The notes under the pieces: model-generated
What the model was told of the DNA's origin: nothing
Databases searched by the model: none
What the model saw: the letters and a program-made list of their open reading frames with translations, nothing else
Translations under genes and position numbers: made by a program
Shown here: positions 293 to 62,203 of the stretch, piece after piece
Layout: each line of letters opens with the position of its first letter
How positions within the stretch are numbered: the first letter of the stretch is position 1
DNA from: Thiomicrorhabdus immobilis
Lineage (GTDB): Bacteria; Pseudomonadota; Gammaproteobacteria; Thiomicrospirales; Thiomicrospiraceae
Assembly (NCBI RefSeq): GCF_021654855.1
Contig: NZ_AP024202.1
Coordinates: forward strand, 2,170,001 to 2,234,000
Direction: 5' to 3'
DNA: 64,000 nt

Positions 293-1021
293 CTACAATA
301 AGTGCCTGCCACCGTCCAACTGCAATATAGTTCCGGTGGTATAACTGCTGTTCATCAAATACTCTACCGCCTGCCAAACCACGATTGCCCCAGGTTCGAT
401 CGGCAAAGCCGCCTGCGCTAAACGCTTCTGTTTATAGACATCGCTATCACCCTTATTAAATTGGATCAAGGCCGGGGCAATGTCATTCACCTTAATATCC
501 GGTGCAAACTTCTTGGCAAACCCCTGGCTTAGCGTTTGCAATGCGGCCTTACTGGCAAGATAGGCGATATGAGAATCGGCAACACGGCTCACACTGTAAT
601 CGGATAACGAAATGATGTCTTTGTGTCGACTGCTGGAGGCCAACAAAAGTGGATGCAAATGTTCATTCAAATAACTTGGCACCTCAACATGCACTTTAAA
701 TAAATCAGCATATTCAGCCGATAATGCGGGAGCCTGTGCATCGCTTAACCATACAGAGGCATTATGGATTAGCGCCCGTAAACTTTTGACATGCGTTTTT
801 ACCTCTTCCACCAGGCCTGGTAAGTTTTTTGAATCGCTGAAATCGACTGGAATTGCAATCGCACCTAAAGCAATCAACTCCTCGACTTCGGAGCGCGGGG
901 TTCGATAAGTAAACACAACCGGAAAATCAGTTTGACTTAAAAATTGGCGAACCAAATAAGCGCCGATACGCTGACCTCCACCGGTAATCAACACTGCATT
1001 TTCTAATCGCTTTGAACTCAT
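293..1021 (-). CDS. folM: FolM-type short-chain dehydrogenase (dihydromonapterin reductase)
   Basis: A 242-residue short-chain dehydrogenase. It has the nucleotide-binding T-G-G-G-x-R-I-G near residue 13, H-N-A-S-x-W, the catalytic Y-x-x-x-K in YLASK, K-V-N-D-I-A-P-A-L-I, and the C-terminal L-D-G-G-R-H-L. The TGGGxRIG, HNASxW and DGGRHL set is specific to FolM, which reduces dihydromonapterin (and weakly dihydrofolate) with NADPH. A folE2 gene 3 kb away supports a pterin role. A copy of the 12-bp palindrome lies in the gene at 810-821 and is read as LPGLV between the second strand and the NASVW motif. A general SDR of other specificity cannot be excluded. Confidence 0.78.
   Translation of the reverse strand: MSSKRLENAVLITGGGQRIGAYLVRQFLSQTDFPVVFTYRTPRSEVEELIALGAIAIPVDFSDSKNLPGLVEEVKTHVKSLRALIHNASVWLSDAQAPALSAEYADLFKVHVEVPSYLNEHLHPLLLASSSRHKDIISLSDYSVSRVADSHIAYLASKAALQTLSQGFAKKFAPDIKVNDIAPALIQFNKGDSDVYKQKRLAQAALPIEPGAIVVWQAVEYLMNSSYTTGTILQLDGGRHLL
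810..821. repeat. Palindrome ACCAGGCCTGGT, exact copy 1 (in folM)
   Basis: Exact 12-bp match, inside the folM reading frame and read as L-P-G-L-V. Outer flanking bases are not complementary. Confidence 0.95.
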
Positions 1022-1404
1022 TTATCCACCTTAAAAAAACCTATGATAATCCACCTTATGGTTATCATCACCAAATTAAATCGCCTGCCAAGACTATTGT
1101 AACGATTTTAAAGACCCATAATTGTAAGACCTATAATTGTACGACTTCAAGGCAATCAAAAAACAGCAAACCTTAAATAAAAATTTAACTACCAATAATA
1201 CGTACTACAATAGAGTTTTTCACTTACTTTCAAATGAATATTAACTATTAGGACTCAAACGAGCTCTGAACAAAAAACACTTATTAAACATTATCTTATT
1301 CTTTTATATATGAATTATTTCGACCCCATATTAATATTTTTTATATAATAACGGGCTCGCAAATATTTTTTGAACTTGAACGTAAATTTAGAGATACAGA
1401 ACAA
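1022..1404. other. Divergent intergenic region folM / mqo
   Basis: 383 bases without a gene between divergent folM and mqo. It is AT-rich towards mqo and should hold both promoters. Apart from the tandem 15-bp repeat at 1112-1141, I see no RNA gene or conserved ORF. Confidence 0.6.
1112..1141. promoter_or_regulatory. Tandem 15-bp direct repeat upstream of mqo
   Basis: AGACCCATAATTGTA (1112-1126) is followed directly by AGACCTATAATTGTA (1127-1141), 14 of 15 identical. A partial third copy, AGACTATTGTA, starts at 1091. Head-to-tail repeats between divergent genes suggest a regulator binding site. The regulator is unknown. Confidence 0.35.
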
Positions 1405-2751
1405 ATGAAAAATCGTACTTTCGATGTTGTGATTGTTGGCGGTGGAATTTCCGGAAGCGCCCTAACCTATATGCTGTCTAAGTATAGCAATGTCGGTTCT
1501 GTTGCCATGCTAGAGAAATATGGTTCCTTAGCACCATTAAACTCGCATGCGCGCTCTAATAGCCAAACGTTACACTGTGGCGACATTGAAACGAACTACA
1601 CGCTAGAAAAAGCCAAACTGGTTAAACAGCAAGCCAATATGATTGTGCATTACGCTGACCAGGTAGAGAAGAACGACTTTTTGTACAAGTTTCCAAAGAT
1701 GATTTTGGCCGTAGGTGAAGATGAGTGTGAAAGACTGGAAAAACGTCATCACGAATTTGCGGAAGCCTTCCCTTACATGGAACTTTGGGACGCGGAACGC
1801 ATCGCTGAAGTTGAGCCCGCCGTAGCATTGATTGATGGCAAACCTCGCCCTGAAAAAATCATTGCATCTGGCTGCACCGATGAATATTCGGCGGTTAACT
1901 ACGGCAACCTTTCAAAATCTTTTATCAACAGCGCACGCAATACCAGCACTGAGATTAATGTCTCTCTGAGCTGTGAAGTGGAAAAAATCGCCAAGTTTGA
2001 TGACCACTACGAACTGACCACTCCGCAAGGTACTTTTTTAGCCACGTTTGTGGTGGTTTCAGCCGGAGCACATAGCTTATTGCTCGCCAATCAACTTGGT
2101 CATGGTATGGATATGTCAATCCTACCAATGGGTGGAAGTTTCTACTATGTGCCGAAGATATTGAACGGTAAAGTGTACACCATGCAAAACGATAAACTGC
2201 CGTTTGCCGCTCTGCATGGCGATCCGGATTTGATTGAACTGGATAAAACCCGACTTGGGCCAACGGCTTTAGTGCTACCTAAACTGGAGCGTTATACCGG
2301 CGGAACCTATTGGGATTTCTGGAAGAGTCTAAAGCTCGACTTTAAAGTGATTAAAGTCTTCTGGGACTTAATGAAAGACAGCACGATTCGTAACTATATC
2401 TTTAGAAATTTCATGTTTGAAGTCCCGATACTTCGTCAAAAACTGTTTGCCAAAGATGCCAGTAAAATCATCCCAAGCTTAAAGCCGGAAGGTTTAGAGT
2501 ATGCCTCGGGAATTGGCGGCTTACGCCCTCAAGTCATCGATAAAACCACCATGCAACTCAAACTGGGTGAAGCGAGCATCGTGCCTGAAAATGAAAACCT
2601 CATCTTCAATATGACACCTTCTCCAGGCGCGACAACCTGTTTGGGCAACGCTTATCGTGATGCACAGATTATTGCCGAACGCCTTGGCATCGAGTTAAAC
2701 AGAGAAGCGATAGTCAATGAACTGTTAGGTGGTACCGACATCCCTCGCTAA
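1405..2751 (+). CDS. mqo: Malate:quinone oxidoreductase, epsilonproteobacterial type
   Basis: A 448-residue FAD protein that would oxidise malate to oxaloacetate at the membrane and pass electrons to quinone. The N-terminus has the FAD-binding V-x-V-G-G-G-I-S-G at about residues 10-18, then L-E-K-Y at the end of the second strand. S-H-A-R-S-N-S-Q-T-L-H-C-G-D-I-E-T-N-Y matches the Helicobacter/Campylobacter Mqo motif, where N-S-Q-T-x-H-x-G-x-I-E-T-N-Y is typical. The C-terminus has P-S-P-G-A-T-T-C-L-G-N-A. It is shorter than the ~490-residue enterobacterial Mqo. An AT-rich region with a tandem repeat precedes it. A related 2-hydroxyacid oxidase specificity is possible. Confidence 0.72.
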   Translation: MKNRTFDVVIVGGGISGSALTYMLSKYSNVGSVAMLEKYGSLAPLNSHARSNSQTLHCGDIETNYTLEKAKLVKQQANMIVHYADQVEKNDFLYKFPKMILAVGEDECERLEKRHHEFAEAFPYMELWDAERIAEVEPAVALIDGKPRPEKIIASGCTDEYSAVNYGNLSKSFINSARNTSTEINVSLSCEVEKIAKFDDHYELTTPQGTFLATFVVVSAGAHSLLLANQLGHGMDMSILPMGGSFYYVPKILNGKVYTMQNDKLPFAALHGDPDLIELDKTRLGPTALVLPKLERYTGGTYWDFWKSLKLDFKVIKVFWDLMKDSTIRNYIFRNFMFEVPILRQKLFAKDASKIIPSLKPEGLEYASGIGGLRPQVIDKTTMQLKLGEASIVPENENLIFNMTPSPGATTCLGNAYRDAQIIAERLGIELNREAIVNELLGGTDIPR

Positions 2752-5084: not shown

Positions 5085-5096
5085 ACCAGGCCTGGT
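5085..5096. repeat. Palindrome ACCAGGCCTGGT, exact copy 2
   Basis: Exact match, just past the folE2 terminator in the convergent gap before the beta-lactamase-fold gene. Confidence 0.95.
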
Positions 5097-6528: not shown

Positions 6529-7644
6529 CTAAGTTCTATCAAGCGTATGAGAATTTTTATGCTCGTAAACATCAAAAATAGTGATGGCCATAGCGGCAAT
6601 TACAGGCCCAAAAAACAGTCCAATCACACCAAAATGAATCAGTCCTGCAAAAGTGGACAACACCGTGATAAGTGTGTGGTTTGCGACCTTGAGCCCCTCA
6701 CCAGCCACACCCAAGCTATTGGTGAGTCGGTTGATCATCAAAGGTCGCATGATGTTGTCAATCACAAAACCGGTAATGACAACACCCCAAAATGCGATTA
6801 TGGCTGCAGTGACATAATCGCCTTGAGCGACCGAGAAAATCACGATAGGAATCCAAACTAGAGCCGCACCCACCACCGGAATAAAAGAGGTCACGGCAAT
6901 CGCCATGCCGATAAACAGGCCGGGTAACCCTAAAAACCAAGAAACCAAAGCGAATGACACACCCTGCATCACCGCAATCCCCACCACACTCAAGGTTAAA
7001 ACCGTTGATAACGATGCAAACCGATTCATTATCATCAGGTCATAGTAGTTTTCCAAAGGCGACAGGATTTTTATATGATGCGCAATCGCACGCCCATCAC
7101 GATAAAAGAAAAACAGAGCAAATACCGACAAACCGATAAACGTCACAAATGACGAGGTTGTTCCCAAAATGCCTTCCAATAAAAACACGGTGGCTTGTTG
7201 GACAAAGCCCAGAATCTTTTGTGAGTGCTCTTTTAGCTGCATTAAAGCACTCTGTTGGGCAGATTCACTAATCGGCAGATGGTTCAAAATGGCTTGGTTC
7301 AATTTGGTGAAACTTTCGGCATCCTGCGAATTCAACCAGGCCTGGGCACTGCCATAAAGCCCCCCTACCTGCAAACTGACCTCGACCAATAAATAGGTCA
7401 CCGGCGCAATGACACCTAAAAAGACCAGCGCACTCATAATTGAAGCGGCCATGGTTTCCGAACGCTTGCAATGCGGCAATAACCGCTGATACCCCTTATA
7501 ACTTGCGGTAGCTAAGATCATCGCAAAAAACAGTGCTTCCAGAAAAGGCGAGAATAACCAGACGATTCCAACTAAGGCCAGAATCAACAAAATGATTAAA
7601 AAACCTTCCTCATGAGGACGATTGTCACGCATAATAAACCCCAT
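6529..7644 (-). CDS. AI-2E family (PerM/YdiK-like) membrane transporter
   Basis: A 371-residue polytopic membrane protein with about eight hydrophobic segments: two at the N-terminus, then a hydrophilic stretch (about 75-150), then the rest. F-F-Y-R-D-G-R, I-P-V-V-G-A-A-L-V-W and F-F-G-P-V-I-A-A-M are typical of the family. Members export small molecules or ions, and the autoinducer-2 name reflects one member (TqsA) and should not be taken as function. The ATG at 7632, preceded by GGGG, is an alternative start. The gene is divergent from ppnN with very short spacing, so the promoters must overlap. A near-copy of the 12-bp palindrome is read as AQAWL in the hydrophilic loop. Confidence 0.82.
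   Translation of the reverse strand: MGFIMRDNRPHEEGFLIILLILALVGIVWLFSPFLEALFFAMILATASYKGYQRLLPHCKRSETMAASIMSALVFLGVIAPVTYLLVEVSLQVGGLYGSAQAWLNSQDAESFTKLNQAILNHLPISESAQQSALMQLKEHSQKILGFVQQATVFLLEGILGTTSSFVTFIGLSVFALFFFYRDGRAIAHHIKILSPLENYYDLMIMNRFASLSTVLTLSVVGIAVMQGVSFALVSWFLGLPGLFIGMAIAVTSFIPVVGAALVWIPIVIFSVAQGDYVTAAIIAFWGVVITGFVIDNIMRPLMINRLTNSLGVAGEGLKVANHTLITVLSTFAGLIHFGVIGLFFGPVIAAMAITIFDVYEHKNSHTLDRT
7335..7346. repeat. Palindrome near-copy (11/12) in AI-2E gene
   Basis: ACCAGGCCTGGG, one mismatch at the last base, read as Q-A-W-L. Confidence 0.8.
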
Positions 7645-10369: not shown

Positions 10370-10381
10370 ACCAGGCCTGGT
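10370..10381. repeat. Palindrome ACCAGGCCTGGT, exact copy 3 (convergent junction)
   Basis: Exact match, extended to the 16-bp perfect palindrome TTACCAGGCCTGGTAA (10368-10383). It lies in the 30-base gap between the helicase and EI24 genes, both ending here. Confidence 0.95.
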
Positions 10382-14047: not shown

Positions 14048-15397
14048 CTATCTGCGATTGAACAGTAAACGATGACCCGGTGTAAACTCAGCAAATTCAC
14101 CTTGATAATATTTAAGTTCGCCTGAAACTATCGTACTGATCACCGATGATTTAAAGGTATGCCCCTCCCACGGAGACCACTGACACTTATATAGGTTATG
14201 CGCTTTATCGTCCGTATGGGGCTTATTCATATCGACCAATACGATATCCGCCCAATACCCTTCTCGAATATAGCCACGATCTGCAATTTGATAACGAATC
14301 GCCACATTATGCGCGGTTTTTTGCACCACGGTTTCCAAATCGAACACCCCTTCATGCACCATATCGAGGAGTGCTGATAATGACTGTTGCACCTGAGGTA
14401 AACCGGCTGGCGCCATAAAATAGCTATTTTGCTTCTCTTCATCAGTATGCGGGGCATGATCCGTGGCGATAATATCAATTCGCCCTTCTCTCACCGCCTG
14501 ACGAATCGCATCGCGGTCGGACTGTTTCTTGATAGCTGGATTGCATTTAATGTAAGAACCACGGGTCGCATAATCCTCTTCGGTAAACCACAAATGATGC
14601 ACACAAGCTTCTGCAGTGATTTTTTTGCCTTCAACCGGGCCTGGTTCGAACAGCGCCATCTCTTCCGCCGTGGTCAAGTGCAGCACATGCAAATCGGCGC
14701 CGGTTTCCTTGGCCAATTCAACCGCAAAAGAGGATGACTTATAACACGCTTCACGACAACGAATCTCAGGATGTGCAGACATAGGTACGTCCTCACCGTA
14801 TTTTTCGCGATACTTGTCTTCCTGAGCCTTAATCATTGGGGTATCTTCACAGTGAGTGGTAATCAATGTCGGGCTATAGGTGAAAATATCCCGTAACGCC
14901 TGCTCTCTATCCACCAACATATTTCCGGTAGACGCTCCCATAAAAACCTTAACACCGCAAACGGTATTGGGATTCACCTGCTTAAGTTCTTCGATATTAT
15001 CGTTGGTCGCTCCAAAGTAAAACGAATAGTTTGTCCACGCTTTCTGAGAACCTATCTGATACTTCGCTTCCAAATTCTCAATGGTCGTCGTTGTTGGCTT
15101 AACATTAGGCATATCCATAAAACTGGTGGTTCCACCCGCAACCGCCGCTTTGGATTCGGTTGCGATATCCCCTTTGGACGTCAAACCGGGATCACGGAAA
15201 TGCACCTGGTCATCAATCATTCCCGGCAACAAGGTTAAGCCTGTTGCATCAATCACTTGATCGGCAGGCTCGTCAATTTTAGGCGCCACTTTTGCAATAC
15301 GTCCGTCAGAGATTAGAACGTCACCCACCATCTTCGAGCCTTCGTTAACGATGGTTGCCTGTGAAATTAAGATTCGTTTTAGCTGTGGTTGCGACAT
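14048..15397 (-). CDS. pyrC: Dihydroorotase
   Basis: A 449-residue amidohydrolase that would cyclise carbamoyl aspartate to dihydroorotate in pyrimidine synthesis. Metal and substrate motifs are present: P-G-M-I-D-D-Q-V-H-F-R-D-P-G with the first two metal ligands (D-x-V-H in place of the usual D-x-H-V-H), K-V-F-M-G with the bridging lysine, T-T-H-C-E-D, H-V-L-H-L-T, and A-T-D-H-A-P-H with the catalytic aspartate. Length and motifs fit class I dihydroorotase. The D-Q-V-H variant is also common in bacterial PyrC-like proteins of this group. A close amidohydrolase (allantoinase-like) is the alternative. pyrE is 12 kb away on the other strand. Confidence 0.85.
   Translation of the reverse strand: MSQPQLKRILISQATIVNEGSKMVGDVLISDGRIAKVAPKIDEPADQVIDATGLTLLPGMIDDQVHFRDPGLTSKGDIATESKAAVAGGTTSFMDMPNVKPTTTTIENLEAKYQIGSQKAWTNYSFYFGATNDNIEELKQVNPNTVCGVKVFMGASTGNMLVDREQALRDIFTYSPTLITTHCEDTPMIKAQEDKYREKYGEDVPMSAHPEIRCREACYKSSSFAVELAKETGADLHVLHLTTAEEMALFEPGPVEGKKITAEACVHHLWFTEEDYATRGSYIKCNPAIKKQSDRDAIRQAVREGRIDIIATDHAPHTDEEKQNSYFMAPAGLPQVQQSLSALLDMVHEGVFDLETVVQKTAHNVAIRYQIADRGYIREGYWADIVLVDMNKPHTDDKAHNLYKCQWSPWEGHTFKSSVISTIVSGELKYYQGEFAEFTPGHRLLFNRR
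14634..14645. repeat. Palindrome near-copy (11/12) in pyrC
   Basis: ACCGGGCCTGGT, one mismatch, read in the gene as E-P-G-P-V-E. Confidence 0.7.
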
Positions 15398-19980: not shown

Positions 19981-19992
19981 ACCAGGCCTGCT
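19981..19992. repeat. Palindrome near-copy (11/12) upstream of ppk1
   Basis: ACCAGGCCTGCT, one mismatch, in the yidD-ppk1 gap. Confidence 0.75.
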
Positions 19993-23982: not shown

Positions 23983-24010
23983 AAAAAGCGACCAGGCCTG
24001 GTCGCTTTTT
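23983..24010. terminator. Bidirectional terminator built on the palindrome
   Basis: A 28-bp perfect palindrome: A5-GCG, then ACCAGGCCTGGT, then CGC-T5. As RNA it forms a 12-bp stem with a GGCC loop and a T-tract on either strand. It sits between convergent ppx and the reductase gene. Confidence 0.85.
23991..24002. repeat. Palindrome ACCAGGCCTGGT, exact copy 4
   Basis: Exact match, core of the ppx terminator. Confidence 0.95.
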
Positions 24011-24069: not shown

Positions 24070-25182
24070 TTAATAGACATCCATTTGCAAACGTTTTTCC
24101 TGTTTAAGGCAACGCCAATAGTTTTGCGCTTGTTCCTCACTCATCGCGCCCTGTTGCTGAAATATCCGCATCAAAGCGTCCTTAACCGATTCTGCAAGCT
24201 TGGCTTGACTGCCGCAAATATAGAATTCAGCCTGGTTGTTGAGTAAATCCCATAATCTATCACCCTGTTCCAACAGACGATTAGAGACATACACCTTGTC
24301 AGCCTGGTCACGGGAAAAAGCATAAAAGGTCTCCACCAACCCTTGCTTTTGCCAGTTCCTGAATTCATCACAAAATAGACAGTTGGTCTGCTGATAGGTC
24401 TCGCCAAAAAACAGCAACGCCCCGCCTAAATCCTGCCCAGCGGCTTGTTGTATGGCCCTATGTTGCATAAAACCGATAAAGGGGGCTAAACCGGTTCCCG
24501 CACCGATCATGACAATCGGAGTTGACGCTTTTTCTGGAAGTTTGAAGGTTGGGTTGGGTTTCAAGCCTCCCTGCAAAATCTGTCCAGGCTGTGTGTCTTG
24601 TAAATAGTTACTTGCAACGCCAAAACGTTGACGCCCCAAATTTTGATACTTGACCGCTTTATATAAGATGGAGACTGTTTGCTGCTTATTAGAAGCCGAA
24701 GCAATAGGAGCCGAGGCAATCGAGTAATATCGGGGTGATAAAGGGGACAACCAGTTCAAGAACTCAACGCCCTGAGCTTTCAACTGAGGATAAAGCGCCA
24801 ATAAATCCAGAATATCTCGACCATTGGCATAATCCATCATCGCCTGTCTATCCGCCCAATCCCCTAAACCGAGCTGTCTTTGCAGTTTGTTCAGAATGGC
24901 CGGATTAAGTTGAGTGAGTTCTAAATGATTTTCTAAGGCTTGCTGCACAGTGACCAGGCCTGATCGCCTTAATTCGATAGATTCATTGCCCGTCAAATCC
25001 AACTCGGCCAATAATGCACTCACCATTTGCGGACTATTTTGCGGCTGAATCGTCAACCAATCTCCAGGTTGGTATTCTAAAATCTCATCACTCTCTTTAG
25101 GGAGCGAAAACGTTGTATAAAAGATGGATTTATCTTTGGAATTAGGCGTAATACAGCGATTTTCTTCGACAACAAAATTCAT
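24070..25182 (-). CDS. CysJ-like diflavin-type reductase lacking the flavodoxin domain
   Basis: 370 residues. The FAD-binding and NADPH-binding modules of the CysJ / cytochrome P450 reductase family are present: Y-Q-P-G-D-W-L near residue 37, the helical connecting domain (about 75-145), R-Y-Y-S-I-A-S for FAD, G-A-G-T-G-L-A-P-F-I-G-F for NADPH, Y-I-C-G-S, and the family's terminal D-V-Y. The N-terminal FMN/flavodoxin domain of CysJ (~600 residues) is absent. Electrons would go to a separate flavodoxin, a ferredoxin or a haem partner, which is not seen nearby. It is a single gene convergent with ppx. Confidence 0.78.
   Translation of the reverse strand: MNFVVEENRCITPNSKDKSIFYTTFSLPKESDEILEYQPGDWLTIQPQNSPQMVSALLAELDLTGNESIELRRSGLVTVQQALENHLELTQLNPAILNKLQRQLGLGDWADRQAMMDYANGRDILDLLALYPQLKAQGVEFLNWLSPLSPRYYSIASAPIASASNKQQTVSILYKAVKYQNLGRQRFGVASNYLQDTQPGQILQGGLKPNPTFKLPEKASTPIVMIGAGTGLAPFIGFMQHRAIQQAAGQDLGGALLFFGETYQQTNCLFCDEFRNWQKQGLVETFYAFSRDQADKVYVSNRLLEQGDRLWDLLNNQAEFYICGSQAKLAESVKDALMRIFQQQGAMSEEQAQNYWRCLKQEKRLQMDVY
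24953..24964. repeat. Palindrome near-copy (11/12) in the CysJ-like gene
   Basis: ACCAGGCCTGAT, one mismatch, read as R-S-G-L-V-T. Confidence 0.8.
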
Positions 25183-32521: not shown

Positions 32522-32533
32522 ACCAGGCCTGGT
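32522..32533. repeat. Palindrome ACCAGGCCTGGT, exact copy 6 (yajQ leader)
   Basis: Exact match, 14-bp with T...A flanks, just upstream of the yajQ ribosome site. Confidence 0.95.
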
Positions 32534-32692: not shown

Positions 32693-33952
32693 ATGTCGAA
32701 CAAAACACCTTTCAGCCCGAATATTTCCACCATAGCCTCGGCCATACAGCCTTTTCATGTGATGAAAATTTTAGCCGAAGCCAAAATATTGGAGGCCAGC
32801 GGCAAAGAGGTGATTCACATGGAAATTGGAGAACCGGATTTTGCATCGCTACCTTGTGTACACCAAGCCGCCAATGAAGCCGCAGAACAGGGATTGACCC
32901 ACTACACGCCGACCATGGGCTTGCCGGCTCTACGAGAAAAACTCGCCGATTTTTATGGCGATTTTTACCAGGCAAACGTTAGCCAAAACAACATTATGAT
33001 CACCCCTGGCTCATCCACCGCCTTGCAACTGGTTTTAACCGCGTTATTAAACCCCGGCGACAAAGTCATGCTGGCAGACCCGGCTTACCCTTGTAACCGC
33101 CAATTTGTGAACCTGTTGCATGGCGAACTGCTCGCCATTCCGGTTTCTCATGAAACACAGTACCAGCTTAACCTTGATTTGCTCAAAGCCAATTGGCAAG
33201 CGGGCATTAAAGTGGTGATGGTCGCCTCCCCGGCCAACCCGACCGGCACAATCATCGAGCAAAACGAGTTGCTGGCGATGGCTGAGTTTTTGGCGGAACA
33301 AAACGCCTATTTCATTGTCGATGAAATCTATCAAGGGCTAGTTTATGAAAGACCCGCCGAAAGCATTTTAGGAAACGTGAATCTACCTGAAAACGTCATT
33401 GTGATTAACTCCTTCTCAAAGTTCTTCGGCATGACGGGCTGGCGTTTGGGTTGGTGTGTTTTACCTGAGCATTTAATCAGTGTAATGGATAGACTGGGGC
33501 AAAACCTGTTTCTAGCCGCTCCCACACCATCACAATATGGCGCTTTACGGGTATTGGAGCAAGATGCCTTGCAAGCTTTAGAAGCACGACGAGCCATCTT
33601 TGAACAACGCCGCAACGCACTCATCAACGCGATGCAACAAGCCAGCTTCACCCCCAAACTCATTCCGCAAGGAGCATTCTACCTATATTGGGATGTATCC
33701 GAATATACCGATAACAGCGAACAATTTTGTGCTGACCTGTTACAACAGACGGGAGTGGCCATCACCCCAGGCAGGGATTTTGGCGATTATCAAGCCAAGC
33801 AGCATGTGCGCCTGGCTTATACCACCGATATAGAGAAATTAACCTTGGCCGTACAGAAAATCAGCGGTTTCATCCACCAAAACGCTGATTTTGAAACGGT
33901 TAAATCAAACCTACCAGGCCTGGTAGGTTTTGATATACAAGGTATTATTTAG
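32693..33952 (+). CDS. PLP-dependent class I aminotransferase
   Basis: 419 residues of fold-type I. It has H-M-E-I-G-E-P-D-F near residue 45, [29 protein letters not shown], the PLP lysine in [14 protein letters not shown], and F-Y-L-Y-W-D. This is the aspartate/alanine-type subgroup (AlaT/PatA-like); specificity cannot be told from sequence. The last ~17 residues, from [10 protein letters not shown], come from a palindrome copy near the stop, so the tail looks like an add-on. It overlaps dut by 8 bases tail to tail. Confidence 0.88.
33907..33930. terminator. 24-bp perfect palindrome at aminotransferase/dut junction
   Basis: AAACCT, then ACCAGGCCTGGT, then AGGTTT: perfectly self-complementary, inside the last codons of the aminotransferase. 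As RNA it gives a 10-bp stem with a GGCC loop. T-tracts are short, so terminator activity is plausible but unproven. Confidence 0.5.
33913..33924. repeat. Palindrome ACCAGGCCTGGT, exact copy 7
   Basis: Exact match within the 24-bp palindrome, read as L-P-G-L-V. Confidence 0.95.
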
Positions 33953-34688: not shown

Positions 34689-36023
34689 ATGGAATCGTTA
34701 AATGACATCCTCTCCACCGCAAGTAGCTGGGCTTGGGGACCCGCCATGTTGGTATTGTTATTGGGAACAGGGATTTACCTAACGATTCGTTTACGTTTTT
34801 TACCTTTACGCAACCTATTCTACGCCTTCTCACTTTTATGGAAAGGCCGAACCTCTAAAGAGGAAGGTGACATCACACCTTTTGGCGCCTTGATGACCGC
34901 CATGTCGGCTACGGTAGGAACGGGAAATATCGCTGGCGTTGCCGCCGCCCTCTTCATTGGTGGGCCTGGCGCCATTTTCTGGATGTGGATGACTGCGTTA
35001 GTGGGCATGGCCACCAAATACAGCGAAGCGGTCTTAGCGGTCAAATATCGTGAAGTCGATGATCAAGGTTGCCATGTGGGTGGCCCAATGTATTACATTA
35101 AAAACGGCATGGGCGAAAAGTGGAAACCACTGGCCTTTGCCTTTGCTTTATTTGGCACCATCGCCGCATTCGGTATCGGCAATATGGTGCAAGCGAATGC
35201 GGTCGCAGGTGCGATGCAAAGTGCTTTTGCAGTCAATAACCAGTTAACAGGCCTGGTGCTTATGGTTTTAGTGGGGTTGGTCCTATTTGGAGGCATTCAA
35301 CGAATTGCCCATACCGCCACCGCCTTAGTACCGATTATGGCGGTGTTATACATTGCGGTTTCTCTCTATATCTTAATTGTTCATGCCGATGCGTTACCTG
35401 GGGCGTTCAGCACCATTATCGAAAGCGCCTTTACCGGCAGTGCCGCCGCAGGTGGTTTTGCCGGAGCCAGTATCATCTTGGCGATCCAGTTCGGCGTGGC
35501 TCGAGGCGTATTCTCCAATGAAGCCGGCTTGGGAACCGCCCCGATTGCGCACGCCGCAGCCAAAACCAACAACCCGGTCGAGCAAGGTCATATCGCCATG
35601 CTCGGCACCTTTATCGATACCATCATTCTGTGCACCATGACTGCTTTAGTGATTATGGTGACCGGTGTCTGGCAAAGCGGCGAAACCGGATCACCATTGA
35701 CGGCTTTGGCGTTTAACACGGGTTTAAATTCTGAATTCGGTTCGATTGTGGTGGCGATTGGCTTGGCGGTGTTTGCTTTTACCACTTTAGTGGGCTGGAG
35801 TTATTATGGTGAAAAATGCGCCGAATACATTGCTGGCACCAAAGTCATCACCGGTTATAGGATTCTTTGGGTCATCGCGGTTTTTGCAGGTGCGGCTTTG
35901 TCCGATTACTTCAATACCATATTGATTTTGGCCGATGTACTCAATGCGTTAATGGCCATTCCCAACTTAATCGCCTTATTGGTGCTTTCGCCCATCATCA
36001 TTAAACTAAGCCAATCAAAGTGA
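34689..36023 (+). CDS. Sodium:alanine/glycine symporter (AGCS family)
   Basis: A 444-residue membrane protein with about ten to eleven helices. Family motifs: G-T-G-I-Y-L-T-I-R-L near residue 26, A-L-M-T-A-M-S-A-T-V-G-T-G-N-I-A-G-V-A, A-L-V-G-M-A-T-K-Y-S-E, G-G-P-M-Y-Y-I, and R-G-V-F-S-N-E-A-G-L-G-T-A-P-I-A-H-A-A. It imports alanine, glycine or related amino acids with sodium. A diguanylate cyclase gene follows at 45 bases, then a serine dehydratase at 6 bases, so the three look like one operon concerned with small amino acids. Confidence 0.93.
   Translation: MESLNDILSTASSWAWGPAMLVLLLGTGIYLTIRLRFLPLRNLFYAFSLLWKGRTSKEEGDITPFGALMTAMSATVGTGNIAGVAAALFIGGPGAIFWMWMTALVGMATKYSEAVLAVKYREVDDQGCHVGGPMYYIKNGMGEKWKPLAFAFALFGTIAAFGIGNMVQANAVAGAMQSAFAVNNQLTGLVLMVLVGLVLFGGIQRIAHTATALVPIMAVLYIAVSLYILIVHADALPGAFSTIIESAFTGSAAAGGFAGASIILAIQFGVARGVFSNEAGLGTAPIAHAAAKTNNPVEQGHIAMLGTFIDTIILCTMTALVIMVTGVWQSGETGSPLTALAFNTGLNSEFGSIVVAIGLAVFAFTTLVGWSYYGEKCAEYIAGTKVITGYRILWVIAVFAGAALSDYFNTILILADVLNALMAIPNLIALLVLSPIIIKLSQSK
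35246..35257. repeat. Palindrome near-copy (11/12) in AGCS gene
   Basis: AACAGGCCTGGT, one mismatch, read as L-T-G-L-V. Confidence 0.75.
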
Positions 36024-41267: not shown

Positions 41268-42488
41268 CTAGCGAATAGCCTCATTTTTAGCAATAAAACT
41301 TAATAAATCTAGAGCTTGCTGAGATTTTGAGGATAACGGATTGGTTTGTTGATGTTGTGCGGTTATCAATACCAATTCGTTTTCATTAGACTCAAACCCC
41401 AAATTATCCCCCACCTGATTGGCACAAATCATATCCAGATTTTTACGCACCAGCTTGTCTTTGGCATATTCGATGACATTTTGGGTTTCGGCGGCAAACC
41501 CGACCACGAAGGGTTTATCAACCTGCTGTGCTACCCATGCGACAATATCGGGGTTCTTAATCAGTTTTAATGTCATTTCATCGCTATCAGACTGTTTTTT
41601 GATTTTTTGCTGAGCCATATCCGCCACTCTAAAATCGGCTACCGCGGCGGCACTAATAAAGACGTCTACAGAGGCGTAATGTTGTTGCACCGCATCAAAC
41701 ATCTGCTCAGCAGAACGGACATCAATACGCTTAACATTCTGTGGAGTGGCTAAGTTTACCGGCCCGGCGATTAAAGTAACCTTAGCCCCCGCCTTAGCGG
41801 CAGTTTCGGCAATGGCAAAGCCCATTTTTCCCGAACTTCTATTGCCAATAAAACGCACCGGGTCGATGTTCTCGTAAGTCGGCCCTGCGGTGATTAATAA
41901 AGATTTACCCTGCCAAAAGGTTTTTAAACCTAACCAGGCCTGGTTGTTTGTTTGTTGCTGTTTTTCGGACTCAACCACAGCATCAAAAATCTGTTGTGGT
42001 TCAGGCATTCTCCCTTCACCGACTTCTCCACAAGCTTGTTCCCCTGAAGCCGGTTGCAATAGCGTCCAACCACGTTGCTTTAAAACCGCTACATTCTCTT
42101 GGGTAGCCGAATTGCTCCACATCAAGCGGTTCATGGCTGGAGCGACAACAATCGGTTTATCGGTTGCCAGAATAATGGTGGTCAACAAGTCATCCGCCCG
42201 CCCCATTCTAAACTTGGCCAAGGTTTCAGCCGATGCCGGAGCGACAATAATCACATCCGCCCAACGAGCCAGTTCAATATGCCCCATACCAGCTTCTTGA
42301 TTAGCATCAAATAAGCTGTCACGAACAGGTTTTCCCGACAAAGCTTGAAAAGACAGCGGTTGAATAAACTCTTTGGCGCCAGAGGTCATGACCACCTGCA
42401 CCTCATGCCCTGCTTTAATAAAAAGACGAGTGAGCTCTAAAGATTTATAGGCGGCAATACCGCCTGTGACACCAAGTAATACTTTCAT
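41268..42488 (-). CDS. coaBC: Bifunctional PPC decarboxylase / PPC synthetase
   Basis: A 406-residue Dfp. The CoaC half (about 1-180) is a flavoprotein with G-V-T-G-G-I-A-A-Y-K, the catalytic-site P-A-M-N-x-x-M-W, and G-E-x-A-C-G-E-x-G-x-G-R-M. The CoaB half (about 195-400) has T-A-G-P-T-Y-E-x-I-D-P-V-R-F-I-G-N-R-S-S-G-K-M-G and K-I-K-K. Together they turn phosphopantothenate plus cysteine into phosphopantetheine for coenzyme A. A palindrome copy falls exactly in the linker between halves, read as N-Q-A-W-L-G. It is convergent with the Cache-EAL gene, with 11 bases between. Confidence 0.96.
   Translation of the reverse strand: MKVLLGVTGGIAAYKSLELTRLFIKAGHEVQVVMTSGAKEFIQPLSFQALSGKPVRDSLFDANQEAGMGHIELARWADVIIVAPASAETLAKFRMGRADDLLTTIILATDKPIVVAPAMNRLMWSNSATQENVAVLKQRGWTLLQPASGEQACGEVGEGRMPEPQQIFDAVVESEKQQQTNNQAWLGLKTFWQGKSLLITAGPTYENIDPVRFIGNRSSGKMGFAIAETAAKAGAKVTLIAGPVNLATPQNVKRIDVRSAEQMFDAVQQHYASVDVFISAAAVADFRVADMAQQKIKKQSDSDEMTLKLIKNPDIVAWVAQQVDKPFVVGFAAETQNVIEYAKDKLVRKNLDMICANQVGDNLGFESNENELVLITAQHQQTNPLSSKSQQALDLLSFIAKNEAIR
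41933..41944. repeat. Palindrome ACCAGGCCTGGT, exact copy 8 (coaBC linker)
   Basis: Exact match, 14-bp with A...T flanks, in the interdomain linker. Confidence 0.95.
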
Positions 42489-43921: not shown

Positions 43922-45232
43922 TCATGCAAATGTATCTTGAAATAAATTGCCTGCCCAATTAAACATGGAACGATAATTTTCTGCACTAGGAGCTCCTGAT
44001 GCATATTTATCTACGACACTATTCGGAACGATATCAATAGGTTGCATTTGTCCTGTTGAAGCATTAAATTCATATACCGCAGTTAACCATGACGCCGTAC
44101 TAGATGAAACGGGGCTATAACAGGCTGAATTGGTTTTTGGAGCAGGATCTGGTTCCAAACCTTTTAATGAGCGAAGCACAGCATCAGCACAAATCTTGGC
44201 TTCTGAATTTCCAATATGACCTGCTTTTGGCAAACCTGTGCCTTGTGAATCACCAATAATATGAATATCTAGACCAAGAGGTACATTAGCACTATTCAAC
44301 TTTGTAGATTCATAAGTCAATGGATTAACGGGTGCCCAATTGTTTTCGTTCAATCCGGCAGTAAAGACAATGGAACCTGCTTTTTGATTAGGAATAACAT
44401 TTAATGTTGTTGCTAAAAGGGTTTCACTGGATGCCCCGCTCACACTATAAGTCACACTCTTTGCATCTGAATCAACGCTAACCACTGCCGCACTATGAAC
44501 ATACTCAACGCCATAAATTGCAAACATCGCACCAAAGGTATCTGCTTCAACGGTAATCGCTGGATTAGCGTCCAGCACCTTCACAGTACACCCTGTATAA
44601 CCTTTAGTGTTTTTCAGGTAATCCGCCACAACACAGGCACGCTCATAAGGCCCTGGAGGACAACGATATGGTGCTTTTGGAACGGTCATAACAAAGCTAT
44701 CACCATCTTGCATGGCGTCAATTTGTGCTTTTAATAAATTGGTTTGCTCACCCGCTTTCCAAGCATGAGGTACTTTTGTAAAGTCATGACCTGGCATGGC
44801 ATCAAAATCAATACCAGGTGCCAAAATCAACTTGTCATAAGAAAGCTCGCTTCCTCCACCTAATTTAATTGTTTTAGCCGTGTTATCTACCGCCACAACG
44901 GTGTCATGCAGCATATTAACGCCATATTTTTGACTATGATTAATATAATTAAAACTTAAATCATCGGTCGTTTTTTGGCCATTTAAAACCAAGTTACTTA
45001 GAATCGGTGAAATGTAAGTTGCGTTAGGTTCAACAACCGTTACTTGAACACTTAAACCACCCCACATTTTCAAATATTTAGCCACCGTGGCTCCTGCAAA
45101 ACCTCCACCAACAACAATAATTTGCGGTATGGTTGTAGTGTCAATCGCTCTTACCAGGCCTGGTAAAGCTGTTGCAGTTAACCCAAGGCCAAGCGCTTTC
45201 AATAAATTTCTGCGTGATAATTGATTACTCAT
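43922..45232 (-). CDS. fccB: Flavocytochrome c sulfide dehydrogenase, flavoprotein subunit (copy 1)
   Basis: 436 residues from the ATG at 45232 (AAGGAGA upstream). A Tat signal S-R-R-N-L-L-K is followed by FAD-binding V-V-G-G-G-F-A-G-A-T (40-49), R-C-P-P-G-P-Y-E-R-A-C (190-200), I-G-D-S-Q-G-T-G-L-P-K-A-G-H, and the FCSD C-terminal domain with N-S-A-C-Y-S. Cys191 and Cys371 are placed to form the redox disulfide near the flavin. The cysteine that carries covalent FAD in the Allochromatium enzyme is missing (Y-I-S-P-I-L-S-N, 73-80). It oxidises sulfide in the periplasm and passes electrons to FccA, encoded directly upstream. Confidence 0.9.
   Translation of the reverse strand: MSNQLSRRNLLKALGLGLTATALPGLVRAIDTTTIPQIIVVGGGFAGATVAKYLKMWGGLSVQVTVVEPNATYISPILSNLVLNGQKTTDDLSFNYINHSQKYGVNMLHDTVVAVDNTAKTIKLGGGSELSYDKLILAPGIDFDAMPGHDFTKVPHAWKAGEQTNLLKAQIDAMQDGDSFVMTVPKAPYRCPPGPYERACVVADYLKNTKGYTGCTVKVLDANPAITVEADTFGAMFAIYGVEYVHSAAVVSVDSDAKSVTYSVSGASSETLLATTLNVIPNQKAGSIVFTAGLNENNWAPVNPLTYESTKLNSANVPLGLDIHIIGDSQGTGLPKAGHIGNSEAKICADAVLRSLKGLEPDPAPKTNSACYSPVSSSTASWLTAVYEFNASTGQMQPIDIVPNSVVDKYASGAPSAENYRSMFNWAGNLFQDTFA
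45153..45164. repeat. Palindrome ACCAGGCCTGGT, exact copy 9 (fccB signal peptide)
   Basis: Exact match, 16-bp with TT...AA flanks, in the Tat signal peptide region, read as A-L-P-G-L-V. Confidence 0.95.
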
Positions 45233-53210: not shown

Positions 53211-53530
53211 TTCCTACCAGGCCTGGTGTTTTTTTAAACCCTTTTAAAATAATGCTAGTAACCTGGAACGACAAAAACATGTAATCAAATTTTAATATTA
53301 ATCTCACTCAAACCAAGTTTTTCAGCAACCCATAAAAACATAAGTGATTACTTATACCTTATAAAATAACGAAAAGTAATAAATCCATACCTCCTATTGC
53401 TCAGTTTCCTTATTTTCATGTCATTTTTATTTAAATAAATTTCTATCTTCAGTTAATAACGCTGTAACAACTCCTCCTTAGAATTTCGTCTCGAAAATAA
53501 CACTTATTCGAAACTACTTAGGAATATTAA
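53211..53530. other. Intergenic region before PhoX-like gene
   Basis: 320 AT-rich bases. It holds palindrome copy 10 and a T-run just after the channel gene. I see no ORF, no RNA gene and no convincing Pho box. The promoter of the PhoX-like gene should be here. Confidence 0.5.
53216..53227. repeat. Palindrome ACCAGGCCTGGT, exact copy 10
   Basis: Exact match 5 bases past the channel stop and followed by GTTTTTTT, so it may help termination. Confidence 0.95.
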
Positions 53531-57864: not shown

Positions 57865-57890
57865 GTCTTACCCAGATAGATTTGAAGCCA

Positions 57891-58030: not shown

Positions 58031-60754
58031 TTAGGACACCTCGGCAAAGGTAAACATCTCTATCCTGTTGCGTCCCTGCTGTTTAGCGGCATACAACATT
58101 CTATCCACCGACTTGAAGATTTCCTCCGAATTCATCTCTTGGTCTGCCGCAAGGTAGAGTCCACCAATTGAAATGGTAACCACCTTTAACGGTGCATGCT
58201 TGTTCTCAATATTAAGCTGTTCAATCTGCTGGCGCAGTAGCTCTAGATGCTCAATGAACTTAGCCTCGCTTTCAAATGAACTGATAGCTAAAAACTCCTC
58301 ACCCCCTACTCTAAACACAAAGTCACTGGCTCGATGAAAACTTAACGTTAGCTGTTTGGCTACATCCTTCAATACTTTGTCGCCATGAGGGTGCCCATAG
58401 GAGTCATTTACCAATTTAAAATAGTCGATATCCAACATCGCGACACATAATGAACGTTGCTCACGTTTTGCACGACGAATTTCGAACTCAATCACTTCAT
58501 TGTAATGACGGCGATTGAATAGGCCAGTTAACTCGTCCGTTACGGAAAGTTGTTCCACACGTTTTTTGTCGGTAATGTTCACCCTTGTCGCCAATACAGT
58601 CGTGACGTGGCCAAATAGATTTTTGTTGGGTGTTAAGGTTAATTCAATCCAATAGGAACCACCATTTTTGGTTTTGGCGCGCATCTCACCACTCCATGAG
58701 TAGCCTTGCAATAACCTTTTATAAATCGTTTGAACCTCCTCATCATCCAAACCTTTCCAGGATAGATTGAGATAAGGCATACCCACCAATTCATCTTGTG
58801 AGTAACCTGAAAGACGGGCAAAGGACTTGCTACTCCAAATGACTTTTTTGGTTTTTAAATCAATCTCAGTCGCATAGGAAAGTTCATGGATTTGAGTAAT
58901 ATAAGATTTTTGTTGGCGTTTTTGATAGGCATAAACAAACACTAAGGAAAGTAAACCGAACACAATCAGAAAAACAGGAATAAAAATTTGTAGCAACTGT
59001 TTATTATTCAATTCTGTAACCAATTCCAAACGTACCCAACGGTTAAAAATGGCGTCACGTTGTTCCTGGGTGACCGAATCGAGTGTTTTTTGAATGATAC
59101 TAAGTAAAACCGGGTTACTCTTTTGCACACCGATGGCAAGCTCGAAACGCTCGGCAAACTGCCCGACAATACGTAAGCCTTCTAAGCCATATTTGTGCTG
59201 AGTATAGTTAATGACCGCCAAATTGCCTAAATAGCCGTCCGCCCGACCATCAACCACGGCATTTAAACCTTCAACCACATTAGTCACTTCTAAAAGTTTG
59301 ACCTCTGGATACTGTGTTTTAAGCAACTCATGTGACCAATACCCCTTAACAACGGCGATTGTAAAGCCAGCCAGTTGTTTATATTCATTAGCGAATTTGA
59401 TTGTGTCGCCACTTGCCAAAGCCATAGGAAAAGACAAATAGGGTTTGGTGAAATTCATATACTCTTTACGCTCTGGTGTAGCCACCGCGCACGAATAAAT
59501 ATCCAATTCACCATTTTTGGTCATCTCAGCAACTTTATCCCAAGAGTCTGAAAAAACCGCTTGGAAACGAACCCCGAGCTTTCTTTCAAACAGCTTAAAA
59601 TAATCGGCGGATATTCCGCTATAACCTTTCTCTGAATCATTGAACTCAAATGGAGCCCAATCACTATCACTCGCTAATGTAATGACCGGGTGGCTTTTTA
59701 AATAAGCCAACTCTTCTTCAGTGAAAAAGCTTTTACTGTCATCAAAGATAAAATCTTGAGTGTTTAATGCCTCAAATTCGGCCGGAGTGATCATCCCCAA
59801 CTCTTTTGCGGTGGCAGCACTCGCTAACAGTTTAAGCGGGTCTATATTACCAATAGGCACATTTCCCGTTTGCACATATTGGCTGGTCACCTTGGCTTCC
59901 GCCAACAAGGCATCCCGAGATTTGACAACCGGGTAGTTTTCTAAAATAAAGTCAACCGTTTCTTGTTGATGGATTATCGCATACTGCCAACCTTTTATGC
60001 TCGCCTCTTTAAAAGCTTTAACCAGGCCTGGTTGTAAACTGGCTATTTTTTTTGAGGTAACCACAAAATCCCCATAACTCTGAACGCCATAAGACTTGGG
60101 GTCCAAGATATAAAACGGTACCCCCATTTGTTTTAATCTATAGGGTTCATTGGTTGCATAAGCCGCATAATAATCAACTTTACCATCAATAAAATCCTGC
60201 AGGTTGCCTGAAGAGGTGACCGTATGAATCAACTTCTTGACTTCGGGACTGGCTTTGTTCAGCAAGCTTTCCACTTGAAAGCCGCCATCATGCATAACCG
60301 TTTTTTCGGAAAGCTGGGCTAAATCGGTTACAGTTTCATGGGCCAATAACACCAAAGGGGAAAACTGAAAAGAGGCCATGATTAAAGAGAGCGGCTTGCC
60401 TTTGGCATAGTCGACAATCATAGTGCCCTTACCTACCCCAAAATCGGCACGTCCGGAAACCACTTCATCGGCAACATTTACACCTGGCTTCCAGCTGACC
60501 ATGTTCACATCCAAACCCGCTTGCTGATAATACCCTTGCTTAATTGCCGCGTAAAAGCCGGCGAATTGGAATTGATGATTCCAGTTAATTTGCACCTTTA
60601 CATGGGTTAACGATTGAGTTGATTTTGAAGAGGATGAAACGGTAGAAACGCTTGTAGATTGAGATTCACTAGCATGTACCGAACTAGCAAACACTAACCA
60701 CCCTATGAATAAAATTATTGATAATTTCATCGAAAACAAATAGGAAGGTTTCAT
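58031..60754 (-). CDS. Sensor diguanylate cyclase with two fused periplasmic binding domains
   Basis: 907 residues. Signal helix (about 8-28), an NMT1/THI5-like binding domain (about 50-345, with Q-I-N-W-N-H-Q-F-Q-F-A-G-F-Y-A-A and E-P-Y-R-L-K), an SBP_bac_3 amino-acid-type domain (about 350-575, with S-D-W-A-P-F-E-F), a transmembrane helix (about 580-605), PAS (about 615-735) and GGDEF with V-G-G-E-E-F (817-821). The cyclase site is intact. Two unlike ligand domains on one sensor suggest integration of two nutrients, perhaps a pyrimidine-like and an amino-acid-like one. A palindrome copy lies in the first binding domain (L-Q-P-G-L-V-K). Confidence 0.87.
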   Translation of the reverse strand: MKPSYLFSMKLSIILFIGWLVFASSVHASESQSTSVSTVSSSSKSTQSLTHVKVQINWNHQFQFAGFYAAIKQGYYQQAGLDVNMVSWKPGVNVADEVVSGRADFGVGKGTMIVDYAKGKPLSLIMASFQFSPLVLLAHETVTDLAQLSEKTVMHDGGFQVESLLNKASPEVKKLIHTVTSSGNLQDFIDGKVDYYAAYATNEPYRLKQMGVPFYILDPKSYGVQSYGDFVVTSKKIASLQPGLVKAFKEASIKGWQYAIIHQQETVDFILENYPVVKSRDALLAEAKVTSQYVQTGNVPIGNIDPLKLLASAATAKELGMITPAEFEALNTQDFIFDDSKSFFTEEELAYLKSHPVITLASDSDWAPFEFNDSEKGYSGISADYFKLFERKLGVRFQAVFSDSWDKVAEMTKNGELDIYSCAVATPERKEYMNFTKPYLSFPMALASGDTIKFANEYKQLAGFTIAVVKGYWSHELLKTQYPEVKLLEVTNVVEGLNAVVDGRADGYLGNLAVINYTQHKYGLEGLRIVGQFAERFELAIGVQKSNPVLLSIIQKTLDSVTQEQRDAIFNRWVRLELVTELNNKQLLQIFIPVFLIVFGLLSLVFVYAYQKRQQKSYITQIHELSYATEIDLKTKKVIWSSKSFARLSGYSQDELVGMPYLNLSWKGLDDEEVQTIYKRLLQGYSWSGEMRAKTKNGGSYWIELTLTPNKNLFGHVTTVLATRVNITDKKRVEQLSVTDELTGLFNRRHYNEVIEFEIRRAKREQRSLCVAMLDIDYFKLVNDSYGHPHGDKVLKDVAKQLTLSFHRASDFVFRVGGEEFLAISSFESEAKFIEHLELLRQQIEQLNIENKHAPLKVVTISIGGLYLAADQEMNSEEIFKSVDRMLYAAKQQGRNRIEMFTFAEVS
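60021..60032. repeat. Palindrome ACCAGGCCTGGT, exact copy 11 (in sensor cyclase)
   Basis: Exact match, 14-bp with A...T flanks, read as P-G-L-V. Confidence 0.95.
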
Positions 60755-60875: not shown

Positions 60876-61085
60876 TTATAAAACGCGTTCACCATGATAT
60901 AAAGCTTTTGCCAAACGCATAGCAGGTGGAGTCTTATCAAAATCTTGTAGAGCAGGCCTATCTTCGAAACTGCGTTTAGCATCATAAGCCGCTTCAGAGT
61001 TTGCAAAAGCGGCAATCACCCTGCCGCCAAAAAGCACGATGTAATCGTAGCCATTGAACTCTACGATGTAATTAGAGGTATTCAT
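60876..61085 (-). CDS. Small hypothetical protein
   Basis: 69 residues from the ATG at 61085, which has GGGAG 7 bases upstream (the ATG at 61109 lacks one). I do not recognise it. It starts with a beta-rich stretch (Y-I-V-E-F-N-G-Y-D-Y-I-V-L-F-G-G-R-V-I-A-A-F) and then a helix (S-E-A-A-Y-D-A-K-R-S-F). No signal peptide or cysteine. The good ribosome site supports it as a real gene. It is isolated between a sensor cyclase and mutM. Confidence 0.55.
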   Translation of the reverse strand: MNTSNYIVEFNGYDYIVLFGGRVIAAFANSEAAYDAKRSFEDRPALQDFDKTPPAMRLAKALYHGERVL

Positions 61086-61375
61086 TCTATTCTCCCAAAT
61101 GTTTTTCAATATTCACCACAACTTTCTGACGTGGTTGACTTACCGTGTAATGTTAACTTCTATATCGGCCAAATCTAACTGAAATTAAGTTTTCAGACCG
61201 CTAAGCGATTGTTTTATATAAATACGAAACAAATTCTATGCCGAATGCATTCAATCATTTTTGACAGATTTCTGACGTTTTTAATGCCATATTTATTTAC
61301 AATGACACTTTTCATGGCAAACCGAACTACAATGGTTTGGCAAGCCCTTTTAAAACCCGTAACGACAGAACCGAT

Positions 61376-62203
61376 ATGCCTGAATTACCCGAAGTGGAAA
61401 CCACCCGAAAAGGGATTACCCCAAAAGCCAACCAGCAAGTCATAAAAGCGTTTATTGTACGTAACGCGAGTTTACGTTGGCCGATCGATTTAACCCTCAA
61501 ACAAAAACTGCCAGGCCTGGTCATTCAGTCTATAAATAGAAGAGGCAAGTATTTATTACTCAAAACCGAACTGGGCACCCTACTTATTCATTTGGGCATG
61601 TCTGGCAACCTTAGAGTTTTGCCGGAAAATACGCCCGCTCTCAAACATGACCATGTGGACATCGTGTTAGAAAACGGTTATTTGGTTCGATTAAACGACC
61701 CACGTCGTTTCGGTTCAGTATTATGGCATTCTGCAAATGAAGGCTCTGTCGAACAACACAAACTGCTCGCCAAACTCGCGCCAGAACCTTTATCGGACGA
61801 GTTCAACGGTCAATACTTCTATGAGAAAACCCGTAATCGTAAAGTAGCGATAAAAAGCTTGGTAATGAACAGTGCGGTCGCGGTAGGAGCGGGAAACATC
61901 TACGCCAATGAATCGTTGTTCATGAGCAAAATCCACCCCCAAACCATGGCCAGTAAACTCACTGAAAAACAGTGTGAATTATTAGTTAACAACATTAAAA
62001 AAGTCCTAGAAGCCGCCATTGAACAAGGCGGAACCACTCTTAAGGATTTTATGTCGCCCGATGGCAAGCCAGGGTATTTTGTGCAAAAACTCAATGTCTA
62101 TGACCAGGCAGGCAAACCCTGCCCAGTTTGCGGCACACCGATTGAGCGCATAATCCTTAATCAACGCGCCAGTTACTTTTGCCCTAAGTGTCAAAAAACT
62201 TGA
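61376..62203 (+). CDS. mutM: Formamidopyrimidine-DNA glycosylase
   Basis: 275 residues from the ATG at 61376, the only start giving the obligatory M-P-E-L-P-E-V-E-T, whose Pro2 is the catalytic nucleophile. It continues with R-G-K-Y-L-L, H-L-G-M-S-G, N-D-P-R-R-F-G, and a C-terminal zinc finger C-x-x-C-x16-C-x-x-C (C-P-V-C...C-P-K-C). It removes 8-oxoguanine and nicks the site. A palindrome near-copy is read as K-L-P-G-L-V-I-Q. The upstream 290-base gap shows no clear operon partner; in E. coli mutM follows rpmG. Confidence 0.97.
   Translation: MPELPEVETTRKGITPKANQQVIKAFIVRNASLRWPIDLTLKQKLPGLVIQSINRRGKYLLLKTELGTLLIHLGMSGNLRVLPENTPALKHDHVDIVLENGYLVRLNDPRRFGSVLWHSANEGSVEQHKLLAKLAPEPLSDEFNGQYFYEKTRNRKVAIKSLVMNSAVAVGAGNIYANESLFMSKIHPQTMASKLTEKQCELLVNNIKKVLEAAIEQGGTTLKDFMSPDGKPGYFVQKLNVYDQAGKPCPVCGTPIERIILNQRASYFCPKCQKT
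61510..61521. repeat. Palindrome near-copy (11/12) in mutM
   Basis: GCCAGGCCTGGT, first base differs, read as L-P-G-L-V. Confidence 0.8.

Follow-up and report, generated by a model that had tools for sequence, protein, structure and literature searches.

The window analysed here is a 64-kb stretch of the Thiomicrorhabdus immobilis genome (assembly GCF_021654855.1, contig NZ_AP024202.1, positions 2,170,001 to 2,234,000, forward strand), and its subject is a short palindrome, ACCAGGCCTGGT, a candidate DNA uptake sequence. We take the family of this genome to be Thiomicrospiraceae in the GTDB sense. Papers among those listed place the Thiomicrorhabdus group in Piscirickettsiaceae. The window contains 17 matches of the palindrome, 11 of them exact and six with one mismatch; the first-pass annotation, which was made from the letters of the window alone, had placed all 17 correctly. 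They are listed below with the genes or open reading frames (ORFs) around them.

810..821, exact copy of ACCAGGCCTGGT, within a short-chain dehydrogenase gene (293-1021, minus strand)
5085..5096, exact copy, flanked by convergent ORFs and downstream of a GCHY-1 (folE2) gene
7335..7346, one-mismatch copy ACCAGGCCTGGG, inside the ORF 6529-7644 (minus strand)
10370..10381, exact copy, flanked by convergent ORFs, right behind a DEAD-box helicase ORF
14634..14645, one-mismatch copy ACCGGGCCTGGT, within an amidohydrolase gene
19981..19992, one-mismatch copy ACCAGGCCTGCT, intergenic, upstream of a polyphosphate kinase ORF
23991..24002, exact copy, between convergent ORFs; the dyad is extended by the flanks and followed by a T-run, terminator-like
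24953..24964, one-mismatch copy ACCAGGCCTGAT, in an oxidoreductase gene
29654..29665, exact copy, within a TauE/SafE gene; two other species spell the orthologous position differently
32522..32533, exact copy, close to the 5' end of a DUF520 ORF and upstream of where its Pfam domain starts; it may precede the true start
33913..33924, exact copy, at the 3' end of an aminotransferase ORF, facing a convergent ORF
35246..35257, one-mismatch copy AACAGGCCTGGT, within a sodium:alanine symporter gene; the same 12 letters stand at the orthologous place in Thiomicrorhabdus sp. Milos-T2
41933..41944, exact copy, within a DFP/Flavoprotein-domain gene
45153..45164, exact copy, within a gene of the flavocytochrome c sulfide dehydrogenase type
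53216..53227, exact copy, a few bases past the stop of a mechanosensitive channel (MscK-like) ORF
60021..60032, exact copy, within a GGDEF gene
61510..61521, one-mismatch copy GCCAGGCCTGGT, in the ORF 61337-62203 (plus strand)

Abundance of the palindrome

The density of the motif in the window is far beyond chance. One hundred shuffles of the window gave 0.07 matches on average and two at most, against the 17 that are present. The complete T. immobilis genome (2,539,444 bp) contains 446 exact copies of ACCAGGCCTGGT, one per 5.7 kb, and no copy of the reversed control sequence. The annotation had named a whole-genome count close to the Markov expectation as the result that would speak against it; the count is far above the 0.28 copies expected under a third-order model, and 13.5 are expected under a fifth-order model that already includes much of the motif. 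Nor are the copies clustered in the window, since they occur genome-wide and 30 of the 31 sampled 20-kb stretches contain sites. Chance or biased composition as the cause is thus rejected by the shuffles, the reversed control and the Markov model, and the iterated palindrome is confirmed as a real observation.

In a set of 58 genomes that includes T. immobilis itself (37 of its family and 21 of other families), at least 100 exact copies were found in 12 genomes, all of the same family; each of the 21 from outside it has zero or one.

Structure of the unit

The 12-bp core proposed in the annotation stands, but the real motif extends to about 24 bp. In 824 kb of the T. immobilis genome, 126 exact sites with their flanks define the unit AAANYN-ACCAGGCCTGGT-NRNTTT, in which A or G stands at flank position +2 in 93% of sites, T at position +4 in 65% (with A in 22%), and T at positions +5 and +6 in 63% and 54%, respectively. 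In a systematic sample of 684 kb, the NRNTTT flanks on both sides are shared by coding and non-coding sites (55 of each), and hence they are part of the motif and not of terminators. The complementarity of the next outer bases, reported at first pass for eight of the 11 exact window copies, is present there as described, but in a larger genome sample the effect is modest (24 of 54 sites, with 16.1 expected).

The consensus is strong. Within the 824 kb, perfect copies outnumber those with a single mismatch (126 versus 80), and 69 of the 80 mismatches concern the outermost two positions of a half site; the usual changes at position 2, C to G and C to A, are to letters used by relatives. The two halves around GGCC co-occur, with 126 full sites against 18 expected under independence, while an intact left half accompanied by at most one match on the right was seen nine times instead of about 130.

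Placement in the genome

ORFs were called by a simple longest-ORF rule, by which some starts are wrong. Half of the 110 sites considered lie in ORFs, which make up 90.5% of the sequence, and the other 55 lie in the 9.5% between them. The enrichment between genes is roughly tenfold, and most of these sites stand at gene ends. Their density is 1.46 per kb between convergent ORFs, 0.98 between tandem ones and 0.25 between divergent ones (three-way P = 0.003; two sites fell in no interval). Moreover, 32 of 54 intergenic sites lie within 60 bp of an upstream stop, compared with 32% of intergenic positions, the distance being taken to any stop for the sites and only to the stop of the neighbouring gene for random positions. 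Counts per 20 kb vary less than random placement predicts (P = 0.022, 31 stretches).

A large motif-free gap of 83 kb was found among the listed sites of a relative, G036 (C1, 209-292 kb). Two 20-kb samples from this gap have 46% G+C, against 55% in two samples from elsewhere in the same genome, and one of the gap samples encodes TrwC relaxase, integrase-type, RTX-repeat and FecR proteins.

Relatives and dialects

Several spellings of the motif are in use in the family. The pattern ANCAGGCCTGNT has at least 100 matches in 30 of 58 genomes of a sample taken from the family, with at most four for the reversed controls. G023 contains a single match of ANCAGGCCTGNT but 1025 of ACCGGCCGGT, which elsewhere does not exceed 15 per genome; the count of 15 is reached in G013 and G024 (controls 3 and 2), near kin of G023, and this excess is possibly a trace of the dialect.

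Further dialects were derived from k-mer counts on samples, which covered 14 to 60 kb of each relative (100 kb in the case of G018); the counts of the asymmetric ones refer to these samples only. Forms around ACAGGCCTGT and AACAGGCCTG(C/T)T are used in G017, G025 and G005, and AGCAGGCCTGCT in G008, a genome with 8% contamination. Asymmetric forms are AAACTCAACAGGCCGGGT in G020, AAATCTGCCAGGTTGGGG in G076 and G078, and AAATCTGCCAGGCTGGG in G074; G080 has palindromes such as AAAACGCCCAGGCCTGGGCGTTTT, and a form in G082, with three copies in 20 kb, is tentative. All spellings except ACCGGCCGGT keep CAGG, and many have an upstream A-tract and pyrimidine.

No motif was apparent in the samples of 14 genomes (G001, G003, G011, G012, G013, G014, G016, G019, G022, G024, G026, G028, G029 and G031), nor, outside the genus, in those of G032, G058 and G066. 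We call motif-less a genome with none in its sample and few matches to the two patterns searched genome-wide. The motif is thus patchy even inside the genus. A gyrB tree of 32 genomes requires at least three changes between presence and absence, and at least eight changes of dialect among the 21 motif-bearing genomes. Within 350 bp after gyrB itself, a dialect motif is found in 14 of 19 motif-bearing genomes (all but G002, G005, G017, G020 and G072) and in none of 11 motif-less ones.

Change at orthologous sites

Comparison of orthologous loci indicates how the copies arise. The relative Thiomicrorhabdus sp. Milos-T2, whose counterpart of the window aminotransferase is 82% identical, has the same 12 letters at site 29654; T. 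chilensis reads GCAGGCCTGC there, and Hydrogenovibrio JE_KL2 reads CCCCAACCTGGCAGATTT, which is the G076/G078 dialect in reverse complement, all without gaps. At this site 11 of 12 aligned loci are gapless over 28 columns, and the remaining one has gaps outside the motif. Taking four window sites together, the motif is free of gaps in 18 of 19 orthologous alignments, which points to origin by substitution rather than insertion and contradicts, at the few sites tested, an inserted element as the form of the self-spreading motif that the annotation had listed among possible roles. Spread by biased uptake and recombination is the process we favour.

Other repeats

Another short repeat of T. immobilis, GTCATTGCGA, is flanked by sequences such as CCTCGCAATGAC and GTCATTGCGAAC and looks REP-like (repetitive extragenic palindromic). 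It is clustered, since 24 of the 25 copies in a 364-kb sample lie within 100 kb of it. The samples of a motif-less group (G012, G016, G028, G001, G022 and G029) are rich in long tracts of C, which stand in the context AATTTCTCCCCCC and CCCCCCCCTA. G074 carries 27-28 copies of a repeat with the 12-mers CGCGGCTAGGTC, GGCTAGGTCTGA and CCGGATCAGACC, perhaps an array of clustered regularly interspaced short palindromic repeats (CRISPR).

Uptake machinery and methylases

The T. immobilis genome encodes ComEC, as an ORF of 905 amino acids (aa) with Competence, DUF4131 and metallo-beta-lactamase domains, and an MSHA-like system with an MshEN ATPase and a secretin. A second ATPase-secretin set is taken for Tad-like. 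ORFs read by eye further indicate a set for type II secretion and another pilus-like cluster. A pilus-like cluster of T. immobilis at G000:C1 2357-2375 kb has ATPase-like and secretin-like ORFs of its own along with several large ones that resemble pilins, the largest of which, with 746 aa, is pilin-like by eye only. In G023, where the ACCGGCCGGT dialect is used, the MSHA-like pilin locus holds additional large pilin-like ORFs. A search of viral contigs with one window protein gave no matches.

The annotation had also suggested recognition by a methylase. At E <= 0.001, T. immobilis gave no match to either the C5 family PF00145 or the N4/N6 family PF01555 (D12 and type I methylases were not searched), and neither family tracks the motif among relatives. 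PF00145 is over the cut-off in five of the 16 motif-rich genomes covered and matches in eight of 14 without the motif in their samples; PF01555 matches in one of 12 motif-rich genomes covered. A methylase role is not supported by these data.

The motif as a probable uptake sequence

Among the roles that the annotation had listed, an uptake system is best supported, because of the dialects, the strong consensus, the gene-end bias, the AT-rich flanks and the substitution in place observed at a few sites. The presence of ComEC and the motif-free, lower-G+C gap of G036 with its relaxase and integrase-type proteins also speak for it. The motif is probably a DNA uptake sequence of the Thiomicrorhabdus family. 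Respelling across a whole genome by substitution in place needs a drive, and biased uptake followed by recombination is the best-fitting drive known. We infer that the reader of the motif is a surface DNA receptor and that the uptake drive maintains the sites.

In the proposed mechanism, the motif would be a label that is recognised at the binding of free DNA in natural transformation, and DNA of the own kind would thereby be preferred. Labelled fragments would be taken up and recombined more often, and near-motifs that arose by chance would thereby be copied through the population. Such a drive could keep hundreds of near-perfect copies without any single copy being needed. A shift in the preference of the receptor would convert the whole set to a new spelling, and loss of uptake would let the set decay.

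A number of observations weigh against this interpretation. A dyad this close to perfect is uncommon among uptake sequences and suits a homodimeric DNA-binding protein, and the density of one copy per 5.7 kb is several-fold below that of the known uptake sequences of Pasteurellaceae and Neisseriaceae. Regularity of spacing is weak: gaps among the first 100 sites do not differ from an exponential distribution (Kolmogorov-Smirnov P = 0.23). A 35-kb motif-free gap in T. immobilis is not supported as an island, as the 20 kb of it that were read hold ORFs of 1352 and 1407 aa that match RpoB and RpoC, by size only; the gap of G036 also carries a GspD-like secretin found family-wide, and so is not wholly foreign. 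One of the 19 orthologous alignments, that of T. heinhorstiae at site 33913, does have a gap inside the motif, at the alignment end. ComEC is present in 36 of 40 genomes searched, motif-bearing and motif-less alike. No family genome of 37 has a match over the cut-off to ComP_DUS (PF16732) or to PilQ (TIGR02515), below whose cut-off only other secretins match. A lone pilin (G000:C1:553227) was rejected as the receptor, with matches of more than 50% identity in nine of 58 genomes including its own; it has only weak matches in the motif-rich G009, G018 and G027 and a 53% match in G003, whose samples lacked the motif. The MSHA-like pilin locus does not track the motif, being present in all nine genomes compared, five with and four without it. 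In all, no receptor was found among the candidates checked (ComP, PilQ, the lone pilin and the MSHA-like locus; ComN/PpdA was not searched). The dyad and the receptor not found keep our confidence at the level of a probable reading.

The dyad and its symmetric AT flanks, the rarity of solitary half sites and the spread of sites over nearly all sampled stretches would also be expected if the palindrome were the site of an abundant homodimeric chromosome-binding protein, serving nucleoid organisation, segregation or global regulation, with dialects that follow changes in the protein. We consider this reading, which takes up the nucleoid-binding protein suggested in the annotation, unlikely. Hundreds of sites would have to be respelled together, which again needs a drive; sites are rare between divergent ORFs, and none were seen in the samples of several genomes of the genus. 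Asymmetric dialects are ill suited to a homodimer. In addition, an excess of perfect over near copies is, in the part of PMC1626085 available to us, described as unlike the sites of ordinary regulatory proteins.

Less probable still is a palindrome of the HIP1 (highly iterated palindrome 1) kind, generated by an orphan methyltransferase together with methyl-dependent repair. Such a process would fit a palindrome that is highly iterated, has alternative palindromic forms in relatives and deviates at its outer positions, all of which is described for cyanobacteria in the excerpted text of PMC4390886, but it meets with the lack of PF00145 and PF01555 matches in T. immobilis, with NRNTTT flanks and asymmetric dialects that are unlike methylase sites, and with the marked intergenic preference. 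The lowest probability of the three is given to mobile palindromes of the REP/REPIN type and to plain bidirectional transcription terminators. The preference for gene ends in the order convergent, tandem, divergent speaks for them, as do stems longer by at least five pairs in 11 of 55 intergenic and four of 55 coding sites, and perfect hairpins with T-tails in the samples of G072 and G080. On the other side, half of the sites lie in ORFs and have the same flanks there, 30 of the 55 intergenic sites have no extra stem pair, nearly all orthologous alignments are gapless inside the motif, and the asymmetric dialects are unable to fold in this way.

Our best reading is that these would be a third family of self-DNA uptake sequences, previously unreported. 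To our knowledge, no more than two bacterial families have so far been found to use such sequences. A third one, among free-living sulfur oxidisers and with six or more spellings in a single family and apparent losses between related species, would provide many natural comparisons for the protein that reads the tag, for genome-wide change of dialect, and for the choice between selection and a by-product of biased uptake. Among the matches listed from the open-licence literature, there was no report of uptake sequences in this group; none contained the unbroken 12-mer ACCAGGCCTGGT, for which a full match would rank first, and those for the dialect strings held nothing on bacterial uptake. A term search of the available portions of two papers on the genus (PMC12628692 and PMC10608990) gave nothing on transformation or competence of these bacteria, and the genus name is absent from the portion of PMC1852404 at hand.

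Comparison with known systems

The Thiomicrorhabdus motif shares features with several known classes of repeated sequence. REP and REPIN elements are palindromic, lie at gene ends and spread by insertion, whereas half of the copies described here lie in ORFs and, at the tested sites, orthologues differ by substitutions and not by insertions. The stem-loop and T-run that characterise intrinsic terminators are not a property of the sites overall, although some single sites, such as 23991, are terminator-like. HIP1 and the alternative palindromes of cyanobacteria are likewise highly iterated, with other palindromes in relatives; HIP1 is the 8-bp GCGATCGC with cognate methylases (PMC4390886, in the sections available), in contrast to a unit of about 24 bp without a PF00145 or PF01555 match and with asymmetric forms. 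The DNA uptake sequences (DUS) of Neisseriaceae are also abundant, have dialects and occur both in and between genes (PMC12616744 and PMC1626085, both in excerpt). They form the GCCGTCTGAA family, without flanking motifs, and their receptor is ComP.

The remaining system is that of the uptake signal sequences (USS) of Pasteurellaceae. Their hallmarks, according to the accessible part of PMC1626085, are a density of about one per kb, perfect copies in excess of near ones, a preference for non-coding DNA, clade-specific forms, origin by substitution and AT-rich segments, and all of these except the density are seen in Thiomicrorhabdus. Uptake sequences are also spaced more regularly than at random, a trend that T. 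immobilis shows in its counts per 20 kb but not in the gaps between sites. Both systems have hundreds of near-perfect copies, with many in coding sequence in spite of the non-coding preference, and dialects at the level of subclades. The USS cores, AAGTGCGGT or ACAAGCGGT, are non-palindromic, whereas the Thiomicrorhabdus motif, ACCAGGCCTGGT or another spelling, is mostly palindromic and differs from the known USS and DUS cores. At the same time, the same part of that article has the USS core ending in GGT and its second segment starting two bases on with A and ending in three or four T, and in the half site GGT-N-R-N-TTT described here the AT segment stands at the same offset. This common layout is a pointer to, not proof of, a common receptor. 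Tentatively, and with appreciable doubt, we suggest that the family may read the Haemophilus USS half site GGT-N-R-(N)-TTT through a related surface receptor, in several genera, mostly as a double half site and in asymmetric form in at least two lineages; if so, the asymmetric lineages would show one-sided uptake sequences arising from palindromes.

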